From a virus, in the IMG/VR virus record IMGVR_UViG_3300043410_001892, positions 1 through 64,000 of that record: a stretch of 64,000 nucleotides of DNA; one strand, written 5' to 3'. The notes beneath the pieces were generated by a model. The model was given only the letters and a program-made list of their open reading frames with translations. It was not told where the DNA came from and ran no database searches. How positions within the stretch are numbered: position 1 is the stretch's first letter; every line of letters starts with the position of its first letter. The position numbers were made by a program, and so were the translations under genes. Of this stretch, positions 19,838-43,593 are shown one piece after another.

Positions 19838-20029
19838 ATGAACAAGCTAACAGTATTTAAAGAACATTTTGTTGATGGTGTTTATCATAGAGTAAATGGG
19901 CCATCGGCTTATGATTTTGACGACACTACTGATTATTGGGGATGGCATTTATTTGGAAGTGCTCATAGGTATTATGGCCCGGCAGACGAAAACGGAGATT
20001 GGTGGATACATGGTGAGTTTATTAAATGA
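19838..20029 (+). CDS. HRYYGP-family protein
   Basis: 63 aa, first member of family B. VYHRVNGPSAYDF, WGWHLFGSAHRYYGPA, DWWIHGEFIK. The plan is two half-repeats: HR.NGPA..W..G..W.L.G then HRYYGP....G.W..HG..IK. It recalls the 'HR.DGPA' repeats of some phage proteins and, more remotely, MORN-type repeats, but no named family is certain. It lies just after a terminator with no clear promoter. Confidence 0.75.
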   Translation: MNKLTVFKEHFVDGVYHRVNGPSAYDFDDTTDYWGWHLFGSAHRYYGPADENGDWWIHGEFIK

Positions 20030-20412
20030 TACACCGTGACTATTTAAGGATTTGTGAAGACTACTTTATAACTATGAACAGACGAATTAAGTACGAAGTT
20101 ACAAAACCAACAGAACAATATGTGACATACGATGAAGCAATGATGTATGTATTGTTTTATAAAGATAATGGGCGAGGTTGGAGACTTCCTGATCGTGAAG
20201 AATGGTTCATTGATAAGCGAATATATACGAATGCTTGGTATTTAGACAAACCTCTTTGGTCTGATGTACCTAAACGTCGGGTGCAACTAACCCGCATAAG
20301 ACCAATTGTAGTTAAACTTTGTACACTACACAATACAATAAAACGCGCTAAAGAATACGTTGAATACCAGCTGTTTAAGCGTGTTATAAAATTTTTTAAT
20401 GCTATGCTATAG
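20026..20412 (+). CDS. WRLPT-family protein read into a leader repeat
   Basis: 128 aa, ATGA-coupled to the HRYYGP gene before it. YDEAMMYVLFYKDNG, RGWRLPDREEW, AWYLDKPLW, then instead of VPVRD a basic tail. From about residue 113 the tail (YQLFKRVIKFFNAML) is encoded by the regulatory leader repeat at 20362. It is the only WRLPT gene directly inside an HRYYGP run here. Confidence 0.7.
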   Translation: MIHRDYLRICEDYFITMNRRIKYEVTKPTEQYVTYDEAMMYVLFYKDNGRGWRLPDREEWFIDKRIYTNAWYLDKPLWSDVPKRRVQLTRIRPIVVKLCTLHNTIKRAKEYVEYQLFKRVIKFFNAML

Positions 20413-20455
20413 CTAAAAATAAAACGTGCTAAACAGCAAATAAATGAAGGCATAA
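20362..20455 (+). promoter_or_regulatory. HRYYGP-array leader repeat, copy 1
   Basis: About 95 bases starting GAATACCAGCTGTTTAAGCG, with GCTATGCTATAGC in the middle and AAAACGTGCTAAACAGC near the end; the outer parts are an imperfect inverted repeat. A second copy (34237) precedes the big HRYYGP array and a partial third lies at 39783. Function (promoter, operator or RNA leader) not settled. Confidence 0.6.
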
Positions 20456-20680
20456 ATGACTGTAGAAACTATTGTTACTCCCGAAAGTACAGAATATTAT
20501 TTTAATGGTGATCTACATCGATCTAATGGACCTGCAAGTATATGGCATACACAGTGGAATTGGTATTTATTTGGTGAGTATCACAGATACTATGGACCTC
20601 AGGATTATGGCAATGAATGGTGGATCCACGGGGATTATATTAAAACAGAAGGCATATATGATTACAAGAATTCTTACTAA
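20456..20680 (+). CDS. HRYYGP-family protein with C-terminal tail
   Basis: 74 aa behind GAAGGCATAA. LHRSNGPASIWH, WNWYLFGEYHRYYGPQD, EWWIHGDYIK, then TEGIYDYKNSY. Most members stop right after IK, so the stop was lost and the tail overlaps the next gene by 23 bases. Confidence 0.75.
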   Translation: MTVETIVTPESTEYYFNGDLHRSNGPASIWHTQWNWYLFGEYHRYYGPQDYGNEWWIHGDYIKTEGIYDYKNSY

Positions 20681-20852
20681 TCTAGATAATGTTGAGTATT
20701 ATAAAGACGATGTTATACATAGAACTAATGGCCCCGCGCGTACCTGGTTTGATGGTGTAGAAGCTTGGTATCTATTTGGCGAGTATCATAGATACTATGG
20801 TCCGCAAGATGTTGACGGAAGTTGGTGGTTACACGGTGATCAAATAAAATGA
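20658..20852 (+). CDS. HRYYGP-family protein
   Basis: 64 aa from ATG 20658, inside the end of the previous gene. VIHRTNGPARTWFDGVEAWY, LFGEYHRYYGPQDVDGSWWL, HGDQIK. Nearly the same as the next gene. Confidence 0.8.
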   Translation: MITRILTNLDNVEYYKDDVIHRTNGPARTWFDGVEAWYLFGEYHRYYGPQDVDGSWWLHGDQIK

Positions 20853-21049
20853 CTATAAGAATTATTCATAATGATTATAGTGTTGACTACTACCACTATG
20901 ATGTTATACATAGAACTAATGGCCCCGCGCGTAAATGGAATGATGGTGTAGAAGCTTGGTTTTTATTTGGAGAGTATCACAGATACTATGGTCCGCAAGA
21001 TGTTGACGGAAGTTGGTGGTTGCATGGGAACCTAATTAAAGATGACTAA
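20849..21049 (+). CDS. HRYYGP-family protein
   Basis: 66 aa, ATGA-coupled. VIHRTNGPARKWNDGVEAWF, LFGEYHRYYGPQDVDGSWWL, HGNLIKDD. The central 130 bases are almost identical to the previous gene, whereas the first 15 residues differ. Confidence 0.8.
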   Translation: MTIRIIHNDYSVDYYHYDVIHRTNGPARKWNDGVEAWFLFGEYHRYYGPQDVDGSWWLHGNLIKDD

Positions 21050-21242
21050 GCCAACTAAAATAAAAACCTATTTTGGTACCGAGTATTGGTATGATCACAA
21101 CTTACATAGAACTGATGGTCCAGCAGTGTTTTGGTTAGATGAATTTGTATGGTACTTGCATGGTAAGCAACATAGATATTACGGCCCAGCCGATCACATG
21201 GGCGAATGGTATATACACGGGGAGTTTATACATGATATATAA
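21042..21242 (+). CDS. HRYYGP-family protein
   Basis: 66 aa. LHRTDGPAVFWLDEFVWYLH, GKQHRYYGPADHMGEWYIHG, EFIHDI. TDGP replaces TNGP, closest to the 'DGPA' repeats known elsewhere. Ends the first run. Confidence 0.8.
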   Translation: MTKPTKIKTYFGTEYWYDHNLHRTDGPAVFWLDEFVWYLHGKQHRYYGPADHMGEWYIHGEFIHDI

Positions 21243-21247
21243 AGTAT

Positions 21248-21276
21248 TTGCTAAATCAATAATAGTTTGCTATAAT
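21248..21276 (+). promoter_or_regulatory. class I promoter
   Basis: TTGCTA (weaker -35), 17 bp, TATAAT (21271-21276); ATATTTTTTT and GTAGGAGAC before ATG 21308. Confidence 0.75.
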
Positions 21277-21307
21277 ATATTTTTTTAACTAACAGTAGGA
21301 GACTACA

Positions 21308-21898: not shown

Positions 21899-21906
21899 GA
21901 GGTAAT

Positions 21907-22205: not shown

Positions 22206-22439
22206 ATGGAAACTATAGAACTAGTGATCTTTTGGTCATTTTGGTTGTTTGCTGGGATAATAGTAGTTCATACTTTTTTAACTGAACCACTTAATGATAT
22301 GATCAAGTATCGATGGTTACGAATTACTATAAAGGTTATTAGTTTACTTTTATGGCCATTGACCCTAATCTGTATAATGGTAGCAGTTATTGGTTTTATA
22401 ATCTCGGACCTTGAAGTTGTTAAGAAATTCTTTGAGTAA
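22206..22439 (+). CDS. membrane protein, paralog 2
   Basis: 77 aa from the ATG behind GCGGAGGTAAT. Same plan as 21907: two hydrophobic helices, the RWLRITIKVISLLLWPL junction, and a VVKKFFE end. Confidence 0.75.
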   Translation: METIELVIFWSFWLFAGIIVVHTFLTEPLNDMIKYRWLRITIKVISLLLWPLTLICIMVAVIGFIISDLEVVKKFFE

Positions 22440-22447
22440 AAAACCAT

Positions 22448-22482
22448 TTGCAATTCAGCGCATATTGCTTTATAATATGCGC
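22448..22482 (+). promoter_or_regulatory. class II promoter (GCGCATATT dyad)
   Basis: TTGCAA, 17 bp, TATAAT (22471-22476); identical dyad to 22146. Drives 22511. Confidence 0.8.
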
Positions 22483-22510
22483 TTACTTACACAAACATTA
22501 GGAGCAAGTA

Positions 22511-23530: not shown

Positions 23531-23743
23531 ATGCAATTTGAAGAAGTAGTAAGTGAATATTATACACGAATCTATGATGAGGATGACAATTCTCACAAAC
23601 CCAATGGTCCTGCGATAATGTGGGATAATGGCGATTGGGATTGGTATTTATATGATCAATGGCACAGATATTACGGACCGCAAACTAACCCTGAGTTTTG
23701 TCTTAGTGAAGAATGGTGGCTACATGGTGAGAAGGTTAAATAG
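23531..23743 (+). CDS. HRYYGP-family protein
   Basis: 70 aa. HKPNGPAIMWDNGDWDWYLY, DQWHRYYGPQTNPEFCLSEE, WWLHGEKVK. First of three members that carry an insertion of about five residues (NPEF type) between HRYYGPQ and WW.HG. Confidence 0.75.
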   Translation: MQFEEVVSEYYTRIYDEDDNSHKPNGPAIMWDNGDWDWYLYDQWHRYYGPQTNPEFCLSEEWWLHGEKVK

Positions 23744-23751
23744 GACAAATT

Positions 23752-23961
23752 ATGAGTTCTGAGACTATACGATATTATAATGATATTGAACAAAAACATC
23801 GAACTAACGGACCTGCTGTTGAATGGGAGAGTGGCGATTGGCATTGGTATTTAAACAGTTGGTGTCACAGGTATTATGGCTTGCAATGTAACCCTGAGTT
23901 CTCCCATAATGACCAATGGTGGTTACATGGAACTTTAATTAAAGTAAGAAAACATGATTGA
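23752..23961 (+). CDS. HRYYGP-family protein
   Basis: 69 aa. KHRTNGPAVEWESGDWHWYL, NSWCHRYYGLQCNPEFSHND, QWWLHGTLIK then VRKHD. HRYYGP is HRYYGL here. Overlaps the next start by 8 bases. Confidence 0.75.
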   Translation: MSSETIRYYNDIEQKHRTNGPAVEWESGDWHWYLNSWCHRYYGLQCNPEFSHNDQWWLHGTLIKVRKHD

Positions 23962-24181
23962 GCATACTGATAGACAAACTAGACGAACAATTTACTATAA
24001 TGATATTGGCCAACGACACCGAGCTAACGGACCTGCTGTTGAATGGGACGATAATGATTGGTGTTGGGTCTTATTTGGTAGGCAACATCGGTACTATGGG
24101 TATCAGTGTTCGTTTAAAGAGTATGCGTATCGAGAATGGTGGATACACGGAAAGGTAATTAAAAAAGATTTAGTGATTTAA
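23954..24181 (+). CDS. HRYYGP-family protein
   Basis: 75 aa. RHRANGPAVEWDDNDWCWVL, FGRQHRYYGYQCSFKEYAYR, EWWIHGKVIK then KDLVI. The second proline is replaced by Tyr. Confidence 0.75.
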   Translation: MIEHTDRQTRRTIYYNDIGQRHRANGPAVEWDDNDWCWVLFGRQHRYYGYQCSFKEYAYREWWIHGKVIKKDLVI

Positions 24182-24188
24182 AAACCAT

Positions 24189-24217
24189 TTGCAATACCAA
24201 TAACAGTTTGCTATAAT
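24189..24217 (+). promoter_or_regulatory. class I promoter
   Basis: TTGCAA, 17 bp, TATAAT (24212-24217); ATATTTTTTTT and a weak CAGGCGC before ATG 24251. Confidence 0.85.
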
Positions 24218-24250
24218 ATATTTTTTTTAGCACAACACGCAGGCGCAATT

Positions 24251-25375: not shown

Positions 25376-25376
25376 T

Positions 25377-25580
25377 ATGACGCTTGAGATACTTGAAGTA
25401 AATGACGATCTAACGGTATATCTATCAGATCGTAAACTTATGATACTACATAGACCTAATGGGCCTGCAGCAGTCAGGAGCTCCTCTGGGTCTACGTGGT
25501 ATTTGAACAATAAAAAACACCGTTACTACGGTCCAGCTAGATACAATGAGTGGTGGATACATGACAGTCATATCAAATAA
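25377..25580 (+). CDS. HRYYGP-family protein
   Basis: 67 aa from ATG 25377. LHRPNGPAAVRSSSGSTWYL, NNKKHRYYGPARYNEWWIHD, SHIK. HG has become HD in the last motif. Confidence 0.75.
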   Translation: MTLEILEVNDDLTVYLSDRKLMILHRPNGPAAVRSSSGSTWYLNNKKHRYYGPARYNEWWIHDSHIK

Positions 25581-25743
25581 ACACTCAACTGGCCCTGAGA
25601 CGTATCTTGATGGAAAAACTATAATATGGAAAATGAACGGCGGCTGGCATAGATACTATGGCCCTGCTGTTAGCAATACTAATAGCTGGTGGTTACACAA
25701 CAACAAGGTGAAACATGGCAAACCTCAAAAAGCACAAAATTGA
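25561..25743 (+). CDS. HRYYGP-family protein, first repeat decayed
   Basis: 60 aa from ATG 25561. The HRTNGPA position reads NKHSTGPETYLDG; the second half is intact (GGWHRYYGPAVSNTNSWWLH, NNKVK) but is followed by HGKPQKAQN. Overlaps both neighbours. Confidence 0.7.
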   Translation: MTVISNKHSTGPETYLDGKTIIWKMNGGWHRYYGPAVSNTNSWWLHNNKVKHGKPQKAQN

Positions 25744-26232: not shown

Positions 26233-26508
26233 ATGGCAATGAAATACCCAAACAAACTAATACCCGGCGATAAAGTTTTATTAGAAGACGGGAATATTCA
26301 AATAGTTGAATCAACTACTGTTGATCGCAAGAACATGTCAATTAAGTTTCGTTCTGGTAAGACGTTCTTAGTAAACGCGAATACCCAATTGCCAGTTATC
26401 GTAAGTAACTTTGACCCTAGCCAACATTCAATTGATGAAGTGTACAATATGATTCTTGATGATCGGATGTCGTTGTATGAGTTTACACTTTGGTGCTCTG
26501 AGAAATGA
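26233..26508 (+). CDS. hypothetical protein, SH3-like start
   Basis: 91 aa. LIPGDKVLLEDGNIQIVEST, then VDRKNMSIKFRSGKTFLVNA; such GDKV...G...V patterns usually form small beta barrels. C-terminus helical. ATGA-coupled to the following HRYYGP gene. Confidence 0.7.
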   Translation: MAMKYPNKLIPGDKVLLEDGNIQIVESTTVDRKNMSIKFRSGKTFLVNANTQLPVIVSNFDPSQHSIDEVYNMILDDRMSLYEFTLWCSEK

Positions 26509-26705
26509 TCACTGATAAGTATGGTGTCACACGCTATTATCATAAAGATAATAGCATTTTGATACATCGAACTAATGGTTCGGCGAGGATTGAAGGCAAT
26601 CAATGGGAATGGTTCTTACATGGTAAATATCACAGATATTACGGCCCTGAAGATAGTCGTGGTAATTGGTTCATACACGGTGACGCGATTAAGAAAGAGT
26701 CTTAA
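26505..26705 (+). CDS. HRYYGP-family protein
   Basis: 66 aa. LIHRTNGSARIEGNQWEWFL, HGKYHRYYGPEDSRGNWFIH, GDAIK, then KES. NGPA is NGSA. Confidence 0.8.
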   Translation: MITDKYGVTRYYHKDNSILIHRTNGSARIEGNQWEWFLHGKYHRYYGPEDSRGNWFIHGDAIKKES

Positions 26706-26707
26706 TA

Positions 26708-26899
26708 ATGAACAAGGAATTTATACTTGAAGATAGACGTATCTATGTAGTAGATGAACGGTATCATAGAACCAATGGCCCATCCGTTATCTACAACAAT
26801 GGCGAGTGGAGTTGGTATCTACATGGCCAAGCCCATAGGTATTACGGTCCTGCGTATGATACAGGATGGTGGGCTATTTGTGGAGACTTCATACCATGA
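26708..26899 (+). CDS. HRYYGP-family protein
   Basis: 63 aa. YHRTNGPSVIYNNGEWSWYL, HGQAHRYYGPAYDTGWWAIC, GDFIP. The final HG..IK has changed to CGDFIP, unusual for the family. Confidence 0.8.
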   Translation: MNKEFILEDRRIYVVDERYHRTNGPSVIYNNGEWSWYLHGQAHRYYGPAYDTGWWAICGDFIP

Positions 26900-27078
26900 A
26901 TACAGCTATAAATTCGATTGATTTAAGACATGATGAAGACTGGCATAATACAAATGGCCCAATTCTTTGGGAAAACGGCAACCGATGGGAATGGTGGCTA
27001 TTTGATGGTTACCACAGATACTACGGCCCCCAGGATTCAGATGGCAAATGGTTCTTGCATAACAAGCGTATTAAATGA
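26896..27078 (+). CDS. HRYYGP-family protein
   Basis: 60 aa from ATG 26896 (ATGA overlap). WHNTNGPILWENGNRWEWWL, FDGYHRYYGPQDSDGKWFLH, NKRIK. HRTNGPA is HNTNGPI. Confidence 0.8.
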   Translation: MNTAINSIDLRHDEDWHNTNGPILWENGNRWEWWLFDGYHRYYGPQDSDGKWFLHNKRIK

Positions 27079-27278
27079 TAGAACGACTTGAACTTGAAAA
27101 TAGAATTCAATACCAATTAAACGGCAAAACACACAAGACTAATGGCCCAGCTGTAATACTACATAGTGGCAATAGGTGGAGTTGGTGGTTAAATGGGAAG
27201 TTGCATAGATATTACGGACCATTTAGCAAATCCGGTGATTGGATTCTACATGATGAATGTGTTAAAATTGGTAAATGA
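27075..27278 (+). CDS. HRYYGP-family protein
   Basis: 67 aa, ATGA-coupled. THKTNGPAVILHSGNRWSWW, LNGKLHRYYGPFSKSGDWIL, HDECVKIGK. Ends the run. Confidence 0.8.
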   Translation: MIERLELENRIQYQLNGKTHKTNGPAVILHSGNRWSWWLNGKLHRYYGPFSKSGDWILHDECVKIGK

Positions 27279-32465: not shown

Positions 32466-32477
32466 TGCAAAAACTGC

Positions 32478-32506: not shown

Positions 32507-32539
32507 ATATTTTTTTAGTTAAGCAATGCGGAGCGCAAT

Positions 32540-34213: not shown

Positions 34214-34236
34214 GTTTTTACTCAATAAAACACAGT

Positions 34237-34330
34237 GAATATCAGCTGTTTAAGCGTGTTATTATATTTTTTAATGCTACACTGTAGCTAAAAATAAAAC
34301 GCGCTAAACAGCAAACAAATGGAGACATAA
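34237..34330 (+). promoter_or_regulatory. HRYYGP-array leader repeat, copy 2
   Basis: GAATATCAGCTGTTTAAGCG at the start, GCTACACTGTAGC in the middle, AAAACGCGCTAAACAGC near the end. The central hairpin differs from copy 1 (GCTATGCTATAGC) but still pairs. Immediately upstream of the 25-gene array. Confidence 0.65.
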
Positions 34331-34483
34331 ATGAAATACCTATCGAACAAATCATGGTACGGTATATGGTACGATGAAAATGGAAACTATCATAGATACT
34401 ATGGTCCTGCATTTACGGTATTTGATCCTAACATAATGGAAGTTGTAGGTCGATGGCGATTACATGGAGACTTTATTAAATGA
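34331..34483 (+). CDS. HRYYGP-family protein, short
   Basis: 50 aa behind TGGAGACATAA. WYGIWYDENGNYHRYYGPAF, then EVVGRWRLHGDFIK. Only the second half-repeat. First gene after the leader; resembles 35008. Confidence 0.75.
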   Translation: MKYLSNKSWYGIWYDENGNYHRYYGPAFTVFDPNIMEVVGRWRLHGDFIK

Positions 34484-34683
34484 CACCTAATAGAGAGCGA
34501 ACTAAAGGTGATAACGGTTATGTATATGTAGTCAACGACAAGTATCATCGAGCCAATGGACCGGCCCTTAACTTTGACGACAGAGATTGGAGTTGGTGGT
34601 TACATAATCGCTTGCATAGATATTACGGATCTGCAATAAGTAAGGGAGAACAATGGCATCTCCATGGTCGAGAAATTAAATGA
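34480..34683 (+). CDS. HRYYGP-family protein
   Basis: 67 aa, ATGA-coupled. YHRANGPALNFDDRDWSWWL, HNRLHRYYGSAISKGEQWHL, HGREIK. HRYYGP is HRYYGS. Confidence 0.8.
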   Translation: MTPNRERTKGDNGYVYVVNDKYHRANGPALNFDDRDWSWWLHNRLHRYYGSAISKGEQWHLHGREIK

Positions 34684-34844
34684 TTAAACATTGTAAAAGT
34701 GATGCGATAAAAACTAACGGTCCCTCTATTCGTACAGCTACCGGAAGCTGGTGGTGGATTAATGAAGACGTTTATGGCCACAGGTATTATGGGCCGTATA
34801 ACCATCGAGGCGAATGGCGAATACATGGGAGACTAATTAAATGA
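34680..34844 (+). CDS. HRYYGP-family protein
   Basis: 54 aa, ATGA-coupled. AIKTNGPSIRTATGSWWWIN, EDVYGHRYYGPYNHRGEWRI, HGRLIK. First HR is IK. Confidence 0.75.
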   Translation: MIKHCKSDAIKTNGPSIRTATGSWWWINEDVYGHRYYGPYNHRGEWRIHGRLIK

Positions 34845-35011
34845 TTGACGAAGAACATCGTGTAAATGGTGAGTTGCATAGACCCAATGGCCCTGCGCGT
34901 ATATGGTCTACTGGTGTAAAGGCCTGGTTCTTATTTGGCAAGTATCATAGATATTACGGCCCGTCAAGTACCAACGGCCACTGGCGAATTCATAATAGGT
35001 TTATTAAATGA
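34841..35011 (+). CDS. HRYYGP-family protein
   Basis: 56 aa, ATGA-coupled. ELHRPNGPARIWSTGVKAWF, LFGKYHRYYGPSSTNGHWRI, HNRFIK. Close to 20658 in the middle (PAR.W..GV.AW.LFG.YHRYYGP). Confidence 0.8.
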   Translation: MIDEEHRVNGELHRPNGPARIWSTGVKAWFLFGKYHRYYGPSSTNGHWRIHNRFIK

Positions 35012-35193
35012 TTGAAACTACATGGCGTAACACAACTGGTAAAGTTCATAGATACTATGGCTACTCTTTCTATATGAATGACCCTATGACATTTGAAGTT
35101 GTAGGCTATTGGTTTTTAGACGGCCAACTGATTAAACATGAAAAAGTAGGTATGCTTAGTAGACCAACTAGAAAGAAATTTCTAATTAGGTAA
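35008..35193 (+). CDS. HRYYGP-family protein, half unit with new tail
   Basis: 61 aa. NTTGKVHRYYGYSFYMNDPM, EVVGYWFLDGQLIKHEKVGM, then a basic tail SRPTRKKFLIR. Only the second half-repeat. The following 33 bases before the next gene contain TATAAT but no convincing -35. Confidence 0.7.
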   Translation: MIETTWRNTTGKVHRYYGYSFYMNDPMTFEVVGYWFLDGQLIKHEKVGMLSRPTRKKFLIR

Positions 35194-35226
35194 ATTAGAT
35201 AAACACGATAATATAATTGGATTAAA

Positions 35227-35442
35227 ATGATACAACGAGAAGAAACGGATGAGTGTATTTCGTATCGATTAGATACTCGATTACATCGAACTAATGGTCC
35301 AGCTTTGATTGGGAAGGGCAAAGAATATGGTTGTATTACTTGTTGGTATTTACGAGGTAATGAACACCGATACTACGGACCAAGTTCACATCTTAGTTAT
35401 TGGGTAATAAACGGCCGAGTGATTAAATATGAATCAAGATAG
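35227..35442 (+). CDS. HRYYGP-family protein
   Basis: 71 aa. LHRTNGPALIGKGKEYGCIT, CWYLRGNEHRYYGPSSHLSY, WVINGRVIK then YESR. Runs 14 bases into the next gene. Confidence 0.75.
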   Translation: MIQREETDECISYRLDTRLHRTNGPALIGKGKEYGCITCWYLRGNEHRYYGPSSHLSYWVINGRVIKYESR

Positions 35443-35611
35443 ATTTGAATATCGAATAGACGGTAAGTTGCATCGACCTAATGGCCCAGCGATATCTTTT
35501 AGAGAATCTAACTACTGTCAATGGTACTTAAATGGTAAGGTTCACCGATACTACGGGTCGGTGGTAGCTGATTCAGATGATTGGGTAATACATGGGCGTA
35601 GGGTTAAATGA
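35429..35611 (+). CDS. HRYYGP-family protein
   Basis: 60 aa. LHRPNGPAISFRESNYCQWY, LNGKVHRYYGSVVADSDDWV, IHGRRVK. Its stop overlaps the 6-codon frame at 35608. Confidence 0.75.
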   Translation: MNQDRFEYRIDGKLHRPNGPAISFRESNYCQWYLNGKVHRYYGSVVADSDDWVIHGRRVK

Positions 35612-35628
35612 CAAGACAAAAAATATGA
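35608..35628 (+). CDS. 6-codon coupling mini-ORF
   Basis: ATG ACA AGA CAA AAA ATA TGA: begins in the AAATGA stop overlap of the previous gene and ends in an ATGA overlap with the next start at 35625. No Shine-Dalgarno precedes 35625, so this frame may pass ribosomes on. Confidence 0.35.
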   Translation: MTRQKI

Positions 35629-35843
35629 TAACAGTATTAAAGCAAGTTTCTTCTAGTGGCAATATCGAATATTATGATGCTGATACTGTTCAACATAGAT
35701 CTAACGGCCCTGCTGTATATTGGGAAAAATCTAGAGAGTGGATGTGGTTTTGGTTTTTGCATGGAAAGAGACATCGATACTATGGCCCATCAAACGATGA
35801 TGGAGAATGGTACTTACACGGTAAAAAAATAAAAGCAATATGA
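35625..35843 (+). CDS. HRYYGP-family protein
   Basis: 72 aa. VQHRSNGPAVYWEKSREWMW, FWFLHGKRHRYYGPSNDDGE, WYLHGKKIKAI. ATG 35625 chosen; 35592 is in frame but lies inside the previous gene. Confidence 0.7.
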   Translation: MITVLKQVSSSGNIEYYDADTVQHRSNGPAVYWEKSREWMWFWFLHGKRHRYYGPSNDDGEWYLHGKKIKAI

Positions 35844-36031
35844 TTATGAAAGAACACGCGCCAGGCGGGGTTAAGTACACGTTAACTGGCAGACCTCATC
35901 GACCTAATGGACCTGCGTTCATAGGTGATTATAATGCAGAGCCTTGGTATTTGTATGGCAAACGTCATCGGTATTACGGACCGGCGTTGTACAAAAATGA
36001 ATGGCGGATACATGGGGAGTTTATTAAATGA
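35840..36031 (+). CDS. HRYYGP-family protein
   Basis: 63 aa, ATGA-coupled. PHRPNGPAFIGDYNAEPWYL, YGKRHRYYGPALYKNEWRIH, GEFIK. Pair with the next gene: shared REYAAGG.KYTLNG-like start and PNGPAF.GDYN.EPWYL. Confidence 0.8.
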   Translation: MIMKEHAPGGVKYTLTGRPHRPNGPAFIGDYNAEPWYLYGKRHRYYGPALYKNEWRIHGEFIK

Positions 36032-36231
36032 TTAAACGAGAATACGCAGCAGGCGGGTTTAAGTACACGTTAAATGGCAAACTTCATCAACCCAATGGAC
36101 CTGCGTTCGTGGGTGATTATAATTCGGAGCCTTGGTATTTGTTTGGTAGGTGTCACAGATATTATGGACCGGCTGTAATAAGGAGGAATGGCGGCTTTAC
36201 TTGGTTCATACATGGAAGTAGTATAAAATGA
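36028..36231 (+). CDS. HRYYGP-family protein
   Basis: 67 aa. LHQPNGPAFVGDYNSEPWYL, FGRCHRYYGPAVIRRNGGFT, WFIHGSSIK. Recent duplicate of 35840 with an insertion (RRNGGFT) in the second half. Confidence 0.8.
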   Translation: MIKREYAAGGFKYTLNGKLHQPNGPAFVGDYNSEPWYLFGRCHRYYGPAVIRRNGGFTWFIHGSSIK

Positions 36232-36422
36232 TTAAACGAAACGAATATGAATATACTGTTGAATACACGTTAAATCGACAGTTGCATCGACCTAATGGAC
36301 CTGCATTTGAAAGAGCAGATGGATTTTGGATTTGGTGGTTACATGGAAGAGTGCATCGATATTATGGTCCAAATCAATACAAAGTAGAAAAATGGTATCT
36401 ACATGGGAATATGATAAAATGA
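36228..36422 (+). CDS. HRYYGP-family protein
   Basis: 64 aa. LHRPNGPAFERADGFWIWWL, HGRVHRYYGPNQYKVEKWYL, HGNMIK. ATGA-coupled both sides. Confidence 0.8.
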   Translation: MIKRNEYEYTVEYTLNRQLHRPNGPAFERADGFWIWWLHGRVHRYYGPNQYKVEKWYLHGNMIK

Positions 36423-36655
36423 TTAAAAGAACATTAGAATGGTTTAGATCACTAGGTAGTAATCGTTTTAAAATTAGAAGGAAATCTGATAGTAGCATGG
36501 AACTACATTGTACTAATGGTCCAGCTATAGATTTCCGTGATAACGAATGGGTATGGCGATTACACGGTTTACGACATCGATACTACGGTCCATCTGACAA
36601 GTTTGGAAGCACTGCGTTTTGGTTTATACATGACGAGTATATCAAACATGACTAA
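36419..36655 (+). CDS. HRYYGP-family protein, extended N-terminus
   Basis: 78 aa. About 20 extra basic residues (RTLEWFRSLGSNRFKIRRKS) precede LHCTNGPAIDFRDNEWVWRL, HGLRHRYYGPSDKFGSTAFW, FIHDEYIKHD. HR is HC in the first repeat. Confidence 0.75.
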   Translation: MIKRTLEWFRSLGSNRFKIRRKSDSSMELHCTNGPAIDFRDNEWVWRLHGLRHRYYGPSDKFGSTAFWFIHDEYIKHD

Positions 36656-36872
36656 TGATTTAGATCACTTAGCGATAACATCAGATCTCCCTATACATCA
36701 AAGTTATACTGATGGAGTTCGACACCGAACTAATGGACCTGCTGTTGTGTACAGTGCCAACCGATTTGTTTGGTTTCTCAATGACCAATGTCATAGATAC
36801 TACGGCCCAGCTAATCATTTAAGGAATTGGTTTTTTCACGGTGAATTTATACATAAGGAACCTACACTATGA
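36648..36872 (+). CDS. HRYYGP-family protein
   Basis: 74 aa from ATG 36648, overlapping the previous stop by 8 bases. VRHRTNGPAVVYSANRFVWF, LNDQCHRYYGPANHLRNWFF, HGEFIHKEPTL. Confidence 0.8.
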   Translation: MTNDLDHLAITSDLPIHQSYTDGVRHRTNGPAVVYSANRFVWFLNDQCHRYYGPANHLRNWFFHGEFIHKEPTL

Positions 36873-37099
36873 TGTCTCAAGAAGATGGTAAAGTTGTATA
36901 TCGATCAGAAGAAGGCGAGTTGCATAGAGTAAATGGGCCAGCAGTTATACATCTCGATACACTTGCTGGCCCTGTAGAATACGGTAAGGGCTATTGGTGG
37001 TGTAATGGCATGTGGCATAGATATTACGGACCAAGAGACCCTCTTGGATCATGGTACTTACATAACAAAGGAATTAAAAGGCATCCTTTCTATGGCTAA
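36869..37099 (+). CDS. HRYYGP-family protein
   Basis: 76 aa. LHRVNGPAVIHLDTLAGPVE, YGKGYWWCNGMWHRYYGPRD, SWYLHNKGIK then RHPFYG. A longer linker between the two half-repeats than usual. Confidence 0.8.
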   Translation: MMSQEDGKVVYRSEEGELHRVNGPAVIHLDTLAGPVEYGKGYWWCNGMWHRYYGPRDPLGSWYLHNKGIKRHPFYG

Positions 37100-37145
37100 A
37101 ATTGAAAACGGTGATTGGTTCCTTAACATGAGATTTATTAAATGA
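37092..37145 (+). pseudogene. 17-residue fossil of an HRYYGP unit
   Basis: MAKIENGDWFLNMRFIK: only the closing part of a unit (G.W.L...FIK) remains, still with an ATG and still ATGA-coupled to the next gene. It may survive because it keeps ribosomes moving down the array. Confidence 0.5.
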
Positions 37146-37345
37146 CTAAAGTTAAGGTAGTTGAAATTGCTAATAAGGTTAGATACGTAACCGAACAAGG
37201 TGATTATTTGCATAGGGTAGATGGTCCGGCTATCTCATGGAGTGACGGAGACTGGTGTTGGTTGTTAAATGATTTAATGCACAGATATTATGGTCCGGCA
37301 CATGTCCAAGGCACTTGGTACATTCACAACGAGAAGATAAAATGA
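37142..37345 (+). CDS. HRYYGP-family protein
   Basis: 67 aa. LHRVDGPAISWSDGDWCWLL, NDLMHRYYGPAHVQGTWYIH, NEKIK. NGPA is DGPA. Confidence 0.8.
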   Translation: MTKVKVVEIANKVRYVTEQGDYLHRVDGPAISWSDGDWCWLLNDLMHRYYGPAHVQGTWYIHNEKIK

Positions 37346-37539
37346 TTAGAAAAGTCGTTCTTGATGATCGGGTTAGATATGTACGAGAAGATGATATTTT
37401 ACATAGGACTAATGGTCCAGCTGTAATTTGGAATGATGGACAAGCGTCATGGTTTCTTTATGGGAAGAGACATCGATACTACGGCCCATTGAATAATTTT
37501 GGATCCTGGCAACTACATGGAGAATGGTTAAATGGATGA
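37342..37539 (+). CDS. HRYYGP-family protein
   Basis: 65 aa, ATGA-coupled. LHRTNGPAVIWNDGQASWFL, YGKRHRYYGPLNNFGSWQLH, GEWLNG. Ends in LNG, not IK. Confidence 0.8.
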   Translation: MIRKVVLDDRVRYVREDDILHRTNGPAVIWNDGQASWFLYGKRHRYYGPLNNFGSWQLHGEWLNG

Positions 37540-37735
37540 CGCGTTTATACATACACTACATCAAAACAATCAAAACCAAATACATCGAACAAATGGCCCT
37601 GCAAGAATATGGCATCACGGCGCCGAAGATTGGCATTTATTTGGGAGATATCACAGATACTATGGACCTGCTGTATCATGGACTAGTAGTAACTGGATTT
37701 TACATGGGAAACTAATTAAAGATGATGGTGACTAG
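37532..37735 (+). CDS. HRYYGP-family protein
   Basis: 67 aa. QIHRTNGPARIWHHGAEDWH, LFGRYHRYYGPAVSWTSSNW, ILHGKLIKDDGD. Followed by a fossil segment rather than directly by a gene. Confidence 0.8.
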   Translation: MDDAFIHTLHQNNQNQIHRTNGPARIWHHGAEDWHLFGRYHRYYGPAVSWTSSNWILHGKLIKDDGD

Positions 37736-37780
37736 ACTTTTACGGACCACGGTGGATACATGGCGAGTTTATTAAGTTCA
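37736..37780 (+). pseudogene. fossil of an HRYYGP unit reused as a gene start
   Basis: TTTTACGGACCACGGTGGAT, then ACATGGCGAGTTTATTAA, reads Y-G-P then W-I-H-G-E-F-I-K in one frame with the middle deleted. The ATG inside CATGGCGAG (HGE) is now the start of 37760 in another frame. Confidence 0.55.
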
Positions 37781-38005
37781 AAAGAAATTGTACATCACTT
37801 ATATGATGTACATCCGTTAAGTACACAACGTAAAGAAGAATACGTGATAAAGGGAACTACTAACAAAAATCACAGAACTAATGGCCCGGCTGTTATATGG
37901 GCCAATGGCAGTTGGAACTGGGCTTTGAATCACAAGTGTCATAGATACTACGGTCCGGACAGTGATAGAAACTTTTGGCATCTGCACGGAGATTTTATTA
38001 AATGA
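37760..38005 (+). CDS. HRYYGP-family protein with recruited N-terminus
   Basis: 81 aa. The first six or so residues (MASLLS) are encoded by the old HGEFIK segment in a different frame. Then NKNHRTNGPAVIWANGSWNW, ALNHKCHRYYGPDSDRNFWH, LHGDFIK. Confidence 0.75.
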   Translation: MASLLSSKEIVHHLYDVHPLSTQRKEEYVIKGTTNKNHRTNGPAVIWANGSWNWALNHKCHRYYGPDSDRNFWHLHGDFIK

Positions 38006-38202
38006 TTAAACGCTGTGTTACTGAGTTTAGTGAATCGTATACCCTAAACGGCAAGTACCATCGACCCAATGGCCCAGCACATTTATGGAGTAGTGGGTAT
38101 GGAGAATGGTGGGTATGGTTTCTTCATGAAAAGAAACATAGATACTATGGACCACAGTGTATAAATGGTGATTGGTACCTACATCATGAAAGGGTTAAAT
38201 GA
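38002..38202 (+). CDS. HRYYGP-family protein
   Basis: 66 aa. YHRPNGPAHLWSSGYGEWWV, WFLHEKKHRYYGPQCINGDW, YLHHERVK. HG is HH, as in the following block. Confidence 0.8.
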   Translation: MIKRCVTEFSESYTLNGKYHRPNGPAHLWSSGYGEWWVWFLHEKKHRYYGPQCINGDWYLHHERVK

Positions 38203-38393
38203 AAGAACGCAACGAGAATAGTTTAGAACGGATTTGGTACACTACAAACGGTAGGTATCATCGTGCTAATGGTCCTGCGCTGGTGTGGGCCAAGGATATA
38301 TGGGCTTGGTGGTTATATGGCAAACTACATAGATACTACGGCCCAGCACTCGATGAAGGTAACTGGTACTCACATGGAGATAAAATTAAATGA
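38199..38393 (+). CDS. HRYYGP-family protein
   Basis: 64 aa. YHRANGPALVWAKDIWAWWL, YGKLHRYYGPALDEGNWYSH, GDKIK. ATGA-coupled. Confidence 0.8.
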   Translation: MKERNENSLERIWYTTNGRYHRANGPALVWAKDIWAWWLYGKLHRYYGPALDEGNWYSHGDKIK

Positions 38394-38569
38394 TGAACTA
38401 CTTTGACACACAGGGCTTCTATCACAAAACAAATGGCCCTGCGAAGATATGGTCTACAGATGCGCAGGAATGGATATACCACGGCCGTCGGCACAGATAT
38501 TACGGCCCTTCGAGAATATGGAAGGATGGTAATGAACATTGGTACCTAAATCATAAAAGGGTTAAATGA
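38390..38569 (+). CDS. HRYYGP-family protein
   Basis: 59 aa. FYHKTNGPAKIWSTDAQEWI, YHGRRHRYYGPSRIWKDGNE, HWYLNHKRVK. Opens a sub-block of five compact genes (38390-39258) with YHG in place of L.G and H.KR(V/I)K endings. Confidence 0.8.
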   Translation: MMNYFDTQGFYHKTNGPAKIWSTDAQEWIYHGRRHRYYGPSRIWKDGNEHWYLNHKRVK

Positions 38570-38745
38570 AGACATACGTTGACAATGAGCGCAAGGTTCA
38601 CAGAACAAATGGCCCTGCGAGAGAATGGGGTCTGGGTGTGCAGTCATGGTGCTATCACGGCCAATTGCATAGGTATTACGGCCCTTCAAACATATGGAGT
38701 GATGGTAGTTCAAACTGGTACCTACATCATAAAAGGGTCAAATGA
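38566..38745 (+). CDS. HRYYGP-family protein
   Basis: 59 aa. KVHRTNGPAREWGLGVQSWC, YHGQLHRYYGPSNIWSDGSS, NWYLHHKRVK. Second of the compact block. Confidence 0.8.
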   Translation: MKTYVDNERKVHRTNGPAREWGLGVQSWCYHGQLHRYYGPSNIWSDGSSNWYLHHKRVK

Positions 38746-38915
38746 AAGAATACATTGACAATGAGAATAGGGTTCACAAAACTAATGGCCCTGCGCGTAT
38801 ATGGCCTAGTGGTATGGAGGAATGGCGGTGTCACGGACAATGGCATAGATACTATGGCCCGGCATTTACTGGTAGCTTTACTTCTTGGCATCTATATGAT
38901 AAGCGGGTCAAATGA
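38742..38915 (+). CDS. HRYYGP-family protein
   Basis: 57 aa. RVHKTNGPARIWPSGMEEWR, CHGQWHRYYGPAFTGSFTSW, HLYDKRVK. Starts MKEYIDNEN, like its neighbours. Confidence 0.8.
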   Translation: MKEYIDNENRVHKTNGPARIWPSGMEEWRCHGQWHRYYGPAFTGSFTSWHLYDKRVK

Positions 38916-39094
38916 AAGAATATATTGACGATGTGAATAGGATTCACAAAACTAATGGCCCTGCGCGTATATGGGCTAATGGTATGGAGGAATGGCGTTG
39001 TCACGGACTATGGCATAGATACTATGGCCCAGCATTTATATCAACTGGTAGCCTTCTTAGTGCTTGGTATATACATCATAAAAAGATCAAATGA
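38912..39094 (+). CDS. HRYYGP-family protein
   Basis: 60 aa. RIHKTNGPARIWANGMEEWR, CHGLWHRYYGPAFISTGSLL, SAWYIHHKKIK. Most of the first 100 bases match the gene before. Confidence 0.8.
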   Translation: MKEYIDDVNRIHKTNGPARIWANGMEEWRCHGLWHRYYGPAFISTGSLLSAWYIHHKKIK

Positions 39095-39258
39095 AAGAAT
39101 ACATTGATAGGATTCACAAAACTAATGGTCCTGCATGGATCGATGCTAGGCTGCAGGAATGGGTATATTACGGCCAATGGCATAGATACTACGGTCCTGC
39201 AAAAAGTTGGTCTTGGGGACGTGAAGAATGGTACTTACGTCATAAAAAGATTAAATAA
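39091..39258 (+). CDS. HRYYGP-family protein
   Basis: 55 aa. MKEYIDRIHKTNGPAWIDAR, LQEWVYYGQWHRYYGPAKSW, EEWYLRHKKIK. Last gene of the big array; four residues shorter at the start than its neighbour. Confidence 0.8.
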   Translation: MKEYIDRIHKTNGPAWIDARLQEWVYYGQWHRYYGPAKSWSWGREEWYLRHKKIK

Positions 39259-39262
39259 TCAC

Positions 39263-39291
39263 TTGCAATATCAAACTAAGTTTGCTATACT
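39263..39291 (+). promoter_or_regulatory. class I promoter
   Basis: TTGCAA, 17 bp, TATACT (39286-39291). Spacer dyad CAAACTAAGTTTG. Drives 39323. Confidence 0.85.
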
Positions 39292-39322
39292 ATATTTTTT
39301 TACAAATTGCTAGGGGTAACAC

Positions 39323-39853: not shown

Positions 39854-40093
39854 ATGACTACATCAATTACAGGAATACCCTCGATATTATCAGACGCAAG
39901 ATATGTTACTGACTTGTTCAATAAGCAAAAAGCCGTTCAGCAAGCTAGTATTCAGAAACCCTTACAGCAAGTGCAATTGGCTAATAAGATGCACAATGAT
40001 CAGTTGGCTACAGACCCAACATGGATCAATGGCGTTCATTGTCATGATTCAGCAAGTCGGCACAACTACACTTATCTCAATAATACCAAATAG
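39854..40093 (+). CDS. hypothetical protein
   Basis: 79 aa from the ATG behind TTGGAGATTAAA. TTSITGIPSILSDARYVTDL, then Gln-rich QKAVQQASIQKPLQQVQLAN. Likely helical. Function unknown. Confidence 0.7.
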   Translation: MTTSITGIPSILSDARYVTDLFNKQKAVQQASIQKPLQQVQLANKMHNDQLATDPTWINGVHCHDSASRHNYTYLNNTK

Positions 40094-40106
40094 AGTATTA
40101 AAATTC

Positions 40107-40135
40107 TTGCAATTCTATAATTAGTTTGCTATAAT
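40107..40135 (+). promoter_or_regulatory. class I promoter
   Basis: TTGCAA, 17 bp, TATAAT (40130-40135); ATATTTTTTT and TAGGAGTAG before ATG 40169. Confidence 0.85.
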
Positions 40136-40168
40136 ATATTTTTTTAACAACACAACCTAGGAGTAGTT

Positions 40169-41075: not shown

Positions 41076-41273
41076 ATGCACTTCATAACATTAAACAGAG
41101 TAGTACATAAGTCAACAGTAGAAGTAGAAACACATGAAATAGACATTAGGATAAAAGACATTGTAGCATTTCACGATGGCCTCATTGCAGTAGGACATCA
41201 TCAGTATAATATTGTTGAATCAAAGAAAACTATACACGATAAGATTCGTGAGGCAGGTATGACATGGGAGTAA
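41076..41273 (+). CDS. hypothetical protein
   Basis: 65 aa behind AAGGAACTATC. FITLNRVVHKSTVEVETHEI, KDIVAFHDGLIAVGHHQYNI, VVESKKTIHDKI-like end. This short beta-rich plan (a start like F..L......, then 'V.ES...I...I') is common in phage genomes. Overlaps the next gene by 10 bases. Confidence 0.7.
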   Translation: MHFITLNRVVHKSTVEVETHEIDIRIKDIVAFHDGLIAVGHHQYNIVESKKTIHDKIREAGMTWE

Positions 41274-41638
41274 TTCCAGCTAACCCGCCACCAATGAAAA
41301 GTTCACTTTCACTTAAAACCACACTAATCAGTAATTCTGACATACAAGAGATCAGAACTGGTCTTAGTGAGAAGATTATTAACCCTGCATTAAGATGGGT
41401 AGGTAGAATGCTGTTAAACGTAGAGTTAGCCCCTCGATCAGAAAACAAAATGTCATTTGATGAAGCTCAAATGTATGTGCTGTTTTGTAGACATGATGGA
41501 CATAAAAACTGGAGATTTCCAACTCGCGAAGAATGGGAAACTATTCACGGTTGGGAGACACCTGTATGGCTAGCTGAAAAGGACAACGTAGTAACAGATA
41601 AGGATTGGTATGTACAGCCAATTAGAGATAAGAAATGA
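41264..41638 (+). CDS. WRLPT-family protein with long N-terminal region
   Basis: 124 aa. The first 50 residues (GVIPANPPPMKSSLSLKTTL, then NPALRWVGRM) belong to no other member. Then FDEAQMYVLFCRHDG, KNWRFPTREEW, PVWLAEKD, YVQPIRDKK. Opens the 41-44 kb mixed operon. Confidence 0.75.
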   Translation: MGVIPANPPPMKSSLSLKTTLISNSDIQEIRTGLSEKIINPALRWVGRMLLNVELAPRSENKMSFDEAQMYVLFCRHDGHKNWRFPTREEWETIHGWETPVWLAEKDNVVTDKDWYVQPIRDKK

Positions 41639-41880
41639 TTGAACTAGCCCCACGAGAACTTTGGAAGTATGATTTAACCAAAGACGAAGCTAGGTTTTAC
41701 ATATTCACGCTTCCAGGCTATAGAATATCTACATTTGCAGAACTCAACTCATTAGTAGAAGATATACGAGCAATTGATCATGACATGTGGGACGCTTGGA
41801 CACAAGATACACTTGATAGCGACAATATACCCGATGACGAAACCGGTACTGTAGTCCCAGTGAGAGATAAAGATGATTGA
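41635..41880 (+). CDS. WRLPT-family variant lacking the core
   Basis: 81 aa, ATGA-coupled. KDEARFYIFTLPGYRISTFA replaces the usual YC...NG..WRLPT part: the NG loop and Trp are gone and R-I-S-T remains. Then DAWTQD and GTVVPVRDKDD. Near twin of 42097. Confidence 0.7.
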   Translation: MIELAPRELWKYDLTKDEARFYIFTLPGYRISTFAELNSLVEDIRAIDHDMWDAWTQDTLDSDNIPDDETGTVVPVRDKDD

Positions 41881-42100
41881 ACCCGGACCACCTTCTAACG
41901 ATCAAATAACCTTTGATCAAGCATTCTTATACTGTATTACCCTAAACCATAACAACCATAAAGACTGGCGACTGCCTACTAGAATGGAATATCTTCATAG
42001 CGGCTTAGTTCCCTCCAATTCTTTTGACGAAACCGATGTTAGGAATTCAGGCGATGACAGTTGCCAATTACTAATATACCCAGTGAGAGATATAAAATGA
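41873..42100 (+). CDS. WRLPT-family protein
   Basis: 75 aa. FDQAFLYCITLNHNN, KDWRLPTRMEYL, then LLIYPVRDIK. Shares QAFLYCITL with 42789. Confidence 0.8.
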   Translation: MIEPGPPSNDQITFDQAFLYCITLNHNNHKDWRLPTRMEYLHSGLVPSNSFDETDVRNSGDDSCQLLIYPVRDIK

Positions 42101-42336
42101 TTGAAATAGCCCCACGAGAACTTTGGAAATATAACCTAACCGCAGACGAATCCAGACTGTATATATTCACAATCCCAGGCTATAGGATTGCCACAGAACA
42201 TGAACTCTACAATATAAGCGAAGAAGTTAGAAAGCTTGATAATACTATGCGCGATGCTTGGTGCCAAGAAGATCTCAATAATCCATCATTTGAGGGCGAA
42301 ACAGGCACAGCAATCCCAGTGAGAGATATAAAATGA
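42097..42336 (+). CDS. WRLPT-family variant lacking the core
   Basis: 79 aa from ATG 42097 (ATGA). IAPRELWKYNLTADESRLYI, FTIPGYRIATEHEL, DAWCQED, GTAIPVRDIK. Duplicate of 41635 with 41873 in between, so a two-gene unit was copied. Confidence 0.7.
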   Translation: MIEIAPRELWKYNLTADESRLYIFTIPGYRIATEHELYNISEEVRKLDNTMRDAWCQEDLNNPSFEGETGTAIPVRDIK

Positions 42337-42569
42337 TTGAACTAGCCCCTAAGACTATTGACAAATTAGATGCGTATAGAGCCGAACTATATATTTGGAC
42401 TTGTACACACAATGGAAAAAACGACTGGCGATTTCCTACAACACGCGAAACTGCAGAGTTAGATATAACCGGCAGCTGGCAGACCAGTGATTTTGAAAAC
42501 TTTGATATTGAACAAATGGTATTAGACGGCTACGATTGGAGGGTAGTCCCAGTGAGAGATATATGTTAG
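42333..42569 (+). CDS. WRLPT-family protein
   Basis: 78 aa. LDAYRAELYIWTCTHNG, NDWRFPTTRETA, GSWQTSD, WRVVPVRDIC. YC is YI with a Cys four residues on (compare 10985). Confidence 0.8.
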   Translation: MIELAPKTIDKLDAYRAELYIWTCTHNGKNDWRFPTTRETAELDITGSWQTSDFENFDIEQMVLDGYDWRVVPVRDIC

Positions 42570-42802
42570 AATACGGCACACCCTCAGAAGAACCCCTAAC
42601 CTATGATCAAGCGTATATGTACTGCTTTTGGCATGAACCAGTTGGACATTGGCGATTACCCACAGCAGATGAATACTTTACCAGCGAAAAGAACTTAGTA
42701 CGCTACTGGTATGAAGATAGAGATCAATTGTCAGAACGTATGTATCTACAACCAGCTAAGATGCAGGTAATACCAGTGAGGACAATACATGATAACTGCT
42801 GA
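42563..42802 (+). CDS. WRLPT-family protein
   Basis: 79 aa from ATG 42563. YDQAYMYCFWHEPVG, HWRLPTADEYF, RYWYEDRD, MQVIPVRTIHD. Confidence 0.8.
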   Translation: MLEYGTPSEEPLTYDQAYMYCFWHEPVGHWRLPTADEYFTSEKNLVRYWYEDRDQLSERMYLQPAKMQVIPVRTIHDNC

Positions 42803-42992
42803 CCCCACCCCACCCCTGACCTATGACCAAGCATTCTTATACTGTATTACCCTAACACACGACAACTATAAAGACTGGATGATGCCCTTGATACTTGATA
42901 ATAAAGACCCTAGCTGGAGACTACATGACGTTAGAAGACAGAAACATTACAATAGATACCCAGTCACCCCTGTTAGATACAACAACGACTAA
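42789..42992 (+). CDS. WRLPT-family protein, degenerate
   Basis: 67 aa. YDQAFLYCITLTHDN, KDWMMPLILDNKDPSWRLHD, RYPVTPVRYNND. The core WRLPT is WMMPL, with a WRL displaced downstream. The last 68 bases also encode the start of the next gene. Confidence 0.65.
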   Translation: MITADPTPPLTYDQAFLYCITLTHDNYKDWMMPLILDNKDPSWRLHDVRRQKHYNRYPVTPVRYNND

Positions 42993-43182
42993 ATGGCATA
43001 ACCCCAGACATCCAGTTATCAATAAGTCTTGGTACTTACATGGTCGTATGCATCGATACTACGGACCAGCTTACACCCCTCCAGATAGACTTAGAAATGA
43101 ACTTAGACTTAGACATGGACTTGATAAAAATCAATATAAACTAAACTGGTTTCTCAATGGAGAATGGATTAAAGATGATTGA
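42925..43182 (+). CDS. HRYYGP-family protein, modified first half
   Basis: 85 aa from ATG 42925. TTKWHNPRHPVINKSWYLHG, RMHRYYGPAYTPPDRL, then an insertion, NWFLNGEWIKDD. The NGPA repeat is replaced by WHNPRHP. Starts 68 bases inside the preceding WRLPT gene, in another frame. Confidence 0.7.
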   Translation: MTLEDRNITIDTQSPLLDTTTTKWHNPRHPVINKSWYLHGRMHRYYGPAYTPPDRLRNELRLRHGLDKNQYKLNWFLNGEWIKDD

Positions 43183-43372
43183 CAACCCCAGAATGATTCA
43201 TAAGAACAAAGATAACGATATACACAACACTAACGGACCAGCTATGATCTTTCATACTACTAACGAATGGGCACTTAACGAATGGGCACTTTGGGGTAAG
43301 AAACATCGATACTACGGCAATCAGAATAATTATCAAGATACTTGGTTCCTACACGGTAAACAAATTAAATGA
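43175..43372 (+). CDS. HRYYGP-family protein
   Basis: 65 aa from ATG 43175. DIHNTNGPAMIFHTTNEWAL, NEWALWGKKHRYYGNQNNYQ, DTWFLHGKQIK. NEWAL is repeated, an internal 15-base duplication; HRYYGP is HRYYGN. Confidence 0.75.
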   Translation: MIDNPRMIHKNKDNDIHNTNGPAMIFHTTNEWALNEWALWGKKHRYYGNQNNYQDTWFLHGKQIK

Positions 43373-43593
43373 TAGTATATGACGACTACAACAGAATTAT
43401 CTATACCCTCGACGACAAAAATGTCCATACTATCGACGGACATCAAACTAAACACAGAACTAACGGCCCGGCAAGTTATTGGAATAATACGAATCTTAGT
43501 TATTGGTACTTATTTGGCGAGTATCACAGATACTACGGCCCCGCCAATACTTTCGATTATCCTTGGTTCCTACACGGTAAACTAATTAAATGA
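43369..43593 (+). CDS. HRYYGP-family protein
   Basis: 74 aa. TKHRTNGPASYWNNTNLSYW, YLFGEYHRYYGPANTFDYPW, FLHGKLIK. ATGA-coupled to a WRLPT gene. Confidence 0.8.
   Translation: MIVYDDYNRIIYTLDDKNVHTIDGHQTKHRTNGPASYWNNTNLSYWYLFGEYHRYYGPANTFDYPWFLHGKLIK

Follow-up and report, generated by a model that had tools for sequence, protein, structure and literature searches.

The 64,000-nucleotide stretch analyzed here (hereafter, the window) comprises bases 1–64,000 of the 372,173-base IMG/VR virus record IMGVR_UViG_3300043410_001892, a jumbo phage whose large terminase is of the T4 type and is 53% identical to those of the Pseudomonas jumbo phage PA5oct and its kin. The window carries a large set of genes for mini-proteins that share the motif HRYYGP. 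A motif scan found 43 in-frame occurrences of HRYYG on the plus strand of the window and none on the minus strand; a family profile run over the whole record identified exactly 57 HRYYGP genes, 43 in the window and 14 in a run outside it, at 365,253–368,044 of the record. An earlier note, made from the sequence of the window alone, had described about 44 tandem, coupled copies encoding proteins of 50–85 residues. The places, the lengths (50–85 residues, median 66, n=57), and the coupling stand, and the count becomes 43 in the window and 57 in total. All 57 genes start with ATG. Neighboring genes overlap or are at most 10 bases apart at 44 of the 49 junctions within runs, and at 31 of these the overlap is the 4-base ATGA. 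Shine-Dalgarno tetramers were present upstream of 41 of the 57 starts, a count obtained with a broad tetramer set and no control, and not used here as support.

The 43 genes in the window, all on the plus strand, form seven runs of 1, 4, 3, 2, 4, 26, and 3 genes within 19,838–43,593, and unrelated small genes break up these runs. Run 1 is a single gene (19838–20029) detected by both the profile and the motif. Run 2 (20456–21242) consists of genes 20456–20680, 20658–20852, 20849–21049, and 21042–21242, of which 20658 and 20849 are the youngest pair. Run 3 (23531–24181), preceded by a lipoprotein gene and a tRNA-Arg gene, consists of 23531–23743, 23752–23961, and 23954–24181; run 4 (25377–25743) of 25377–25580 and 25561–25743; and run 5 (26505–27278) of 26505–26705, 26708–26899, 26896–27078, and 27075–27278. 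The longest, run 6 (34061–39258), encompasses 26 genes: 34061–34213, 34331–34483, 34480–34683, 34680–34844, 34841–35011, 35008–35193, 35227–35442, 35429–35611, 35625–35843, 35840–36031, 36028–36231, 36228–36422, 36419–36655, 36648–36872, 36869–37099, 37142–37345, 37342–37539, 37532–37735, 37760–38005, 38002–38202, 38199–38393, 38390–38569, 38566–38745, 38742–38915, 38912–39094, and 39091–39258. Run 7 (42925–43593) consists of 42925–43182, 43175–43372, and 43369–43593.

In the family alignment, one tryptophan and the string H-R-Y-Y-G are invariant in all 57 members, whereas H..NGPA, a second tryptophan, H-G preceded by L or I, and I/V-K are nearly so (20658 was entered as 20673, from residue 6, and 34061 as 34070, with the loss of a few N-terminal residues that leaves the core unaffected). 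Variable regions are the N-terminal 10–15 residues, the segment from NGPA to W, and the loop that follows HRYYGP, the last in both sequence and length. The earlier scheme of a freely varying start of about ten residues, an HR.NGPA half, and a nearly invariant HRYYGP half accordingly holds for most members but needs three amendments: the NGPA half is missing in a few proteins (34061, 34331, and 35008), the conservation of the second half is limited to HRYYG, W, L/I-H-G, and I/V-K, and the loop varies along with the N-terminus. Among the 57 copies, 40 distinct DNA sequences, with synonymous codons in use, encode the invariant HRYYG, so that conservation acts on the protein and not on the DNA. 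For eight young paralog pairs pooled, the ratio of nonsynonymous to synonymous substitution rates (dN/dS) is 0.11 at low-entropy (core) sites and 0.91 at high-entropy (edge) sites, with similar dS in both classes (0.43 and 0.46), and for the five youngest pairs, the respective ratios are 0.09 and 0.99; because family-wide entropy defined the site classes, part of the difference in dN follows from the choice of sites, which is not true of the similar dS or of the level near 1. A frame or repeat-DNA artifact is ruled out by the 40 DNA variants, the synonymous codons, and the core dN/dS. Thus, the HRYYGP genes encode selected proteins with freely changing edges. Together with their placement in operons of a promoter-rich block (see below), this bears out the proposal of the earlier note that the family is a scaffold with variable edges made in many versions. 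The function that the note gave as an example, to bind or evade a diverse host target, would be a further step, since neutral drift could also account for edge values that do not exceed 1.

Searches of Pfam, PHROG, NCBIfam, PADLOC (the models of which represent defense, not anti-defense, systems), and PDB sequences yielded no family that fits the mini-proteins; in these collections, they do not coincide with any annotated repeat protein of defined role. A tblastn search with a mini-protein against 50,697 records of isolated phages gave no matches. The relatives came from viral contigs, which, when scanned with close members, yielded 14 loci, one of them (L025) near-identical to this phage and the others encoding proteins with 2 to >10 repeats of the form HRxDGPA(I/V)E..DG.KEW.L.G. 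One such multi-repeat protein produced 48 matches in the record (best E 8e-11), and a joint alignment of the mini-proteins with the HRxDGPA relatives gave a spacing of ~23 residues between the first and second HR in ungapped members. A wider scan for HRxDGPA detected at least 600 viral-contig stretches and, in cellular genomes, 76 loci; of 92 viral loci examined, some of which overlap within one contig, 75 hold at least two family genes, and up to 22. The array is, therefore, not as unusual as first proposed: tandem HRxDGPA arrays are common in phage contigs, and the same phage has 48 genes of a second mini-protein family (see below).

The HRxDGPA proteins of phages, giant viruses, and bacteria, with repeats of 22–23 residues, have the same core as the mini-proteins, H-R-x-x-G-P ... 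W-x-L-x-G, show significant homology with most of them, and likewise occur in tandem phage gene arrays. They contain 2–15 repeats per chain, whereas the mini-proteins have only two, with an invariant YY in the last one and without the C-terminal helix cap, in 57 copies in one genome. The HRYYGP family is a minimal branch, with a very high copy number, of this HRxDGPA repeat of phages and bacteria, which has no name as yet. Pfam covers the HRxDGPA proteins only through part of DUF6745 (PF20530): multi-repeat relatives match positions ~58–105 of its 206, there is no full-length match above the cut-off, and the mini-proteins have no DUF6745 match at all. The residue pair after HR is mostly ED in the relatives and was YY in 0 of 1,290 viral and 0 of 498 cellular repeats, against 57 of 57 here, a count biased in that the loci were partly picked by ED-type patterns. 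The YY of the second repeat appears to be a fixed, lineage-specific patch that marks a distinct branch of the family rather than a non-member, and such a switch from a polar pair to an aromatic one that never varies would fit a contact surface that is held fixed.

A multi-repeat relative was modeled at a predicted local distance difference test score (pLDDT) of 94, and its predicted beta-hairpin solenoid matches the structure of Trypanosoma MORN1 (TbMORN1) at E 3e-7, along with many viral MORN-type proteins. MORN proteins have the same period of ~23 residues as the HRYYGP proteins, but their GxG and YEGEW motifs are replaced here by GPA and W-x-L-x-G, and none of the 57 members or of five relatives matched Pfam MORN or MORN_2 at E 0.1–1. 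The mini-protein itself was modeled as a short beta protein (pLDDT 88; all models are monomers). Its fold is probably MORN-like, by homology to the modeled relative rather than by a direct match. Helicobacter pylori IceA2, which appears in the fold list of the mini-protein only at a non-significant E of 3.3, was not taken as a relative.

The nearest paralog of an HRYYGP gene is its immediate neighbor for 15 of the 57 members, compared to an expectation of 2.0 and a maximum of 10 in 2,000 permutations, which implies growth by tandem duplication; given the median identity of 40% among the members, most copies are old. A DNA pattern for HRYYGP matched two records. A fragment of 42,960 bases (G001), in which most proteins shared with this phage are 40–70% identical, carries six family genes, one with NRYYG in place of HRYYG, and their best matches, where present, are to different, non-corresponding members of this phage. 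A sister record (G003; 372,016 bases, terminase 83–89% identical) is largely colinear with this phage across the block that contains the arrays and has no HRYYGP genes by the family profile, which was positive in the controls G001 and G002. The 3.9 kb that separate the end of the tRNA-Arg gene (23,484) from the gene at 27,359 in this phage, including nine HRYYGP genes, are represented by ~80 bases in G003; the 6.6 kb at 365,056–371,700 of the record, with 14 HRYYGP genes, corresponds to ~90 bases there. These near-empty sites and the absence of the family from G003 indicate an accessory family, the turnover of which takes place by entire runs. Another relative (G005; terminase 86% identical), itself a fragment, contains no HRYYGP gene in 98 kb. 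The G003 terminase (G003:20977–23775, L213) carries an intein-like, in-frame insert of ~400 residues within a single 963-residue frame.

The arrays lie in a promoter-rich block that spans the ends of the record. Close to forty near-identical strong sigma70-type promoters (TTGCAA-N17-TGCTATAATATATTTT), all on the plus strand, occur at 3325–53760 of the window and at 355280–368865 of the record. A weight matrix for TTGCAA-N17-TGCTATAAT, trained on 16 identical −10 sites, found 39 plus-strand sites above 15 bits in the record, compared to two on the minus strand, and a shuffled genome gave none. The 38 plus-strand sites above 17 bits all fall between 355 kb and the record end or within 1–54 kb, in the same direction as the arrays. 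We denote the block early-type, given the resemblance of these sites to host sigma70 promoters; the genes would, accordingly, be expressed early in infection. T4-type late promoters (TATAAATA), examined as a contrast, number 4 in the 74.7 kb of the early block and 21 in the 297.5 kb elsewhere, which is uninformative. Counting the run at 365 kb with the seven in the window, five of eight end 25–37 bases ahead of the −10 of the next promoter (26 bases for run 2, 37 for run 5, and 25 for run 6), so that the runs tend toward the 3′ ends of transcription units. The promoters around the runs, all on the plus strand, are at 19082–19136 (TGCTATAAT-type −10 at ~19117), upstream of runs 1 and 2; 21233–21287 (−10 at ~21268), directly after run 2; 22433–22487 (−10 at ~22468), the nearest upstream of run 3 and weaker, at 19.5 bits; 24174–24228 (−10 at ~24209), after run 3 and upstream of runs 4 and 5; 32463–32517 (−10 at ~32498), the nearest upstream of run 6; 39248–39302 (−10 at ~39283), directly after run 6; and 40092–40146 (−10 at ~40127), the nearest upstream of run 7.

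Interleaved with the HRYYGP genes are those of another mini-protein family, which is related to Lcl_C/DUF1566 (WRLPT...PVRD) and has 48 genes in the record, 47 of them within the early-type block and the upstream ones starting at 351.9 kb. These include, on the plus strand of the window, 16 genes at 2391–11206 (2391–3258, 3975, 5694, 6359–7047, 8317–9296, 9481–10180, and 10985), one between runs 1 and 2 (20026–20412, family profile E 5e-30), and eight around run 7 within 41264–43829 (starting at 41264, 41635, 41873, 42061, 42333, 42536, 42789, and 43590, the last one, 43590–43829, directly 3′ of the run); a further array is located at 351940–363280 of the record. The remaining paralog groups in the genome reach about six genes at most. 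Lcl_C-like genes number 45 in the sister G003 and 28 in the fragment G005. DUF1566 domains are often targets of diversity-generating retroelements (PMC6642488); for the present genes, such an element was ruled out, with no match to RVT_1 (reverse transcriptase) in the record. Other genes in and around the early-type block include an RlaP-type RNA-repair nucleotidyltransferase (window 11557–12495) within it and a GIY-YIG (SegE-like) endonuclease with NUMOD3 just outside it (record 349171–349947; L023:5171–5944). Five large minus-strand paralogs of ~690–950 residues, which start with M(R)LRELY or a similar string and some of which contain repeated ELRTPELCK-type units, occupy 55465–64000 of the window and on to 65711 of the record, as well as 134624–136687.

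The best reading of these observations, to which we assign somewhat less than an even chance, is that the HRYYGP family provides a repertoire of early modules for protein binding, one that is accessory and turns over fast, and that its targets are probably host or defense proteins. Each protein would have a compact MORN-like fold in which a variable N-terminal hairpin is followed by a single canonical HRxNGPA repeat and then by a cap, the repeat that contains the invariant HRYYG; long coupled operons would supply these proteins at an early stage of infection. The conserved core, chiefly the HRYYG patch, would hold the fold and probably provide one common contact, with the protein itself or with a single shared partner, whereas the N-terminal strand, together with the loop that follows HRYYGP, would make up a changeable face through which paralogs bind different host proteins, most likely those involved in host takeover or defense. 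Copies would be born by tandem duplication, diverge at this face, and get lost, leaving an accessory set that differs between close phages. Small duplicated genes that are accessory and of the early type, and whose products have drifting edges on a fixed scaffold, agree with such a set of host-protein binders. Protein binding, the two faces, and a role in counter-defense or takeover are what we infer from this combination. MORN repeats are protein–protein interaction modules that dimerize and oligomerize (PMC7725318); phage T4 overcomes ToxIN by amplifying tifA, a small inhibitor gene, in tandem (PMC9391042), and the homing endonuclease SegB drives such amplification of anti-defense loci (PMC13096335). 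Among the cellular relatives, a Duganella locus (L129:4065–8781) contains tandem HRxDGPA genes between MobC/NikA and a relaxase-like gene, in a mobilization operon, with a PrrC-like AAA_13 gene, the PADLOC candidate defense gene PDC-S06, nearby; the regulator of this element is common to seven cellular HRxDGPA loci, and other loci are near DNA methyltransferases. This association with mobilizable elements and defense candidates is suggestive only.

Several observations weigh against a binder repertoire. The edge dN/dS in the young pairs reaches 1 but is not clearly above it, which falls short of evidence for positive selection, and drift under relaxed constraint accounts for the edges equally well. 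The absence of the whole family from the close sister G003 shows that it is not essential to the lineage. No HRYYGP member was found beside a known anti-defense gene. Finally, a Foldseek search with the mini-protein's own model returned nothing significant (best E 3.3), which may be expected of a protein of only about two hairpins.

One of the two chief rivals of the binder repertoire is accumulation with little function: tandem copies would arise frequently, be tolerated, and be lost slowly, with selection for foldability (non-toxicity) only. The edge dN/dS of ~0.9–1.0, the clear tandem duplication in a recombining phage, the lack of the family in a colinear sister, and the loss of the first repeat in some members are all consistent with this explanation, but a core dN/dS of 0.11 and an HRYYG retained in 57 of 57 copies are strict for unused genes, and start codons and coupling are intact throughout; we consider it unlikely. 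The other chief rival, equally unlikely in our view, is that the mini-proteins are the separate units of a split solenoid that stack via the HRYYG repeat into mixed MORN polymers, a structural product in which diversity sets length, order, or dose. Relatives with 2–15 repeats in one chain, set beside units of two repeats that lack the helix cap, the YY pair that is invariant and unique to this lineage, and the gene coupling, which favors co-assembly, would fit such a product, as would the dimerization and oligomerization of solved MORN proteins (PMC7725318). Stacking, however, does not require free variation of the N-terminus or of the loop length, 57 versions exceed the need of a simple polymer, and the sister phage manages with none.

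Two more specific functions appear less plausible still. The 57 proteins could bind lipids or nucleic acids early in infection, with the copy number serving dosage; they are rich in aromatic and basic residues, and MORN repeats have long been regarded as lipid binders, but TbMORN1 failed to bind membranes (PMC7725318). Dosage also leaves the diverging edges unexplained; we regard this explanation as very improbable. Alternatively, each HRYYGP protein might neutralize a toxin of a host abortive-infection system or of a competing mobile element, much as has been proposed for polyimmunity loci or for YwqK-type MORN antitoxins. The MORN-type fold of the relatives, the early-type promoter setting, the relatives on mobilizable elements near methyltransferases and a PrrC-like gene, and the RNA-repair gene rlaP in the same block all agree with such an immunity repertoire. 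Nevertheless, the HRYYGP proteins match no MORN_2/YwqK or other antitoxin model and no toxin gene was seen paired with any member. We regard it as quite unlikely; it is, in any case, a special case of the binder repertoire. An extension of the binder reading, itself speculative and doubtful, is that the 57 proteins are adaptors, the constant HRYYG face of which docks to a common partner or to each other while the variable face picks a different host or defense protein for each paralog, with the 48 Lcl_C-like proteins as a second repertoire on a lectin-type scaffold, for a total of ~105 interchangeable early binders.

Known systems resemble parts of this picture. The Agrobacterium jumbo phage Atu_ph07 encodes small HRxDGPA proteins at seven places (BFVD matches), but in few copies, annotated as hypothetical, and without HRYYG. 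Bacillus phage G, a jumbo phage as well, has a lineage-specific expansion of a small protein to dozens of copies, ~35 zinc ribbons (PMC7824862), although the fold and the proposed role are unrelated. In the tifA/SegB amplification of T4-like phages, small genes, in that case anti-defense genes, are also multiplied in tandem by recombination (PMC9391042, PMC13096335). Those copies are identical, recent, and under laboratory selection, whereas the HRYYGP paralogs are old and diverged.

Inhibitors of bacterial defense are plentiful among the small early proteins of phages, most of which are unrelated singletons. Here, more than 100 genes on two scaffold families in one phage amount to a natural library on fixed scaffolds, and one of these families, HRYYGP, is wholly missing from a near relative of the same size. 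The finding points to a widespread, unnamed MORN-like repeat, without a known role, in hundreds of phage contigs, and it makes testable whether a jumbo phage maintains a whole repertoire of binders instead of individual inhibitors.

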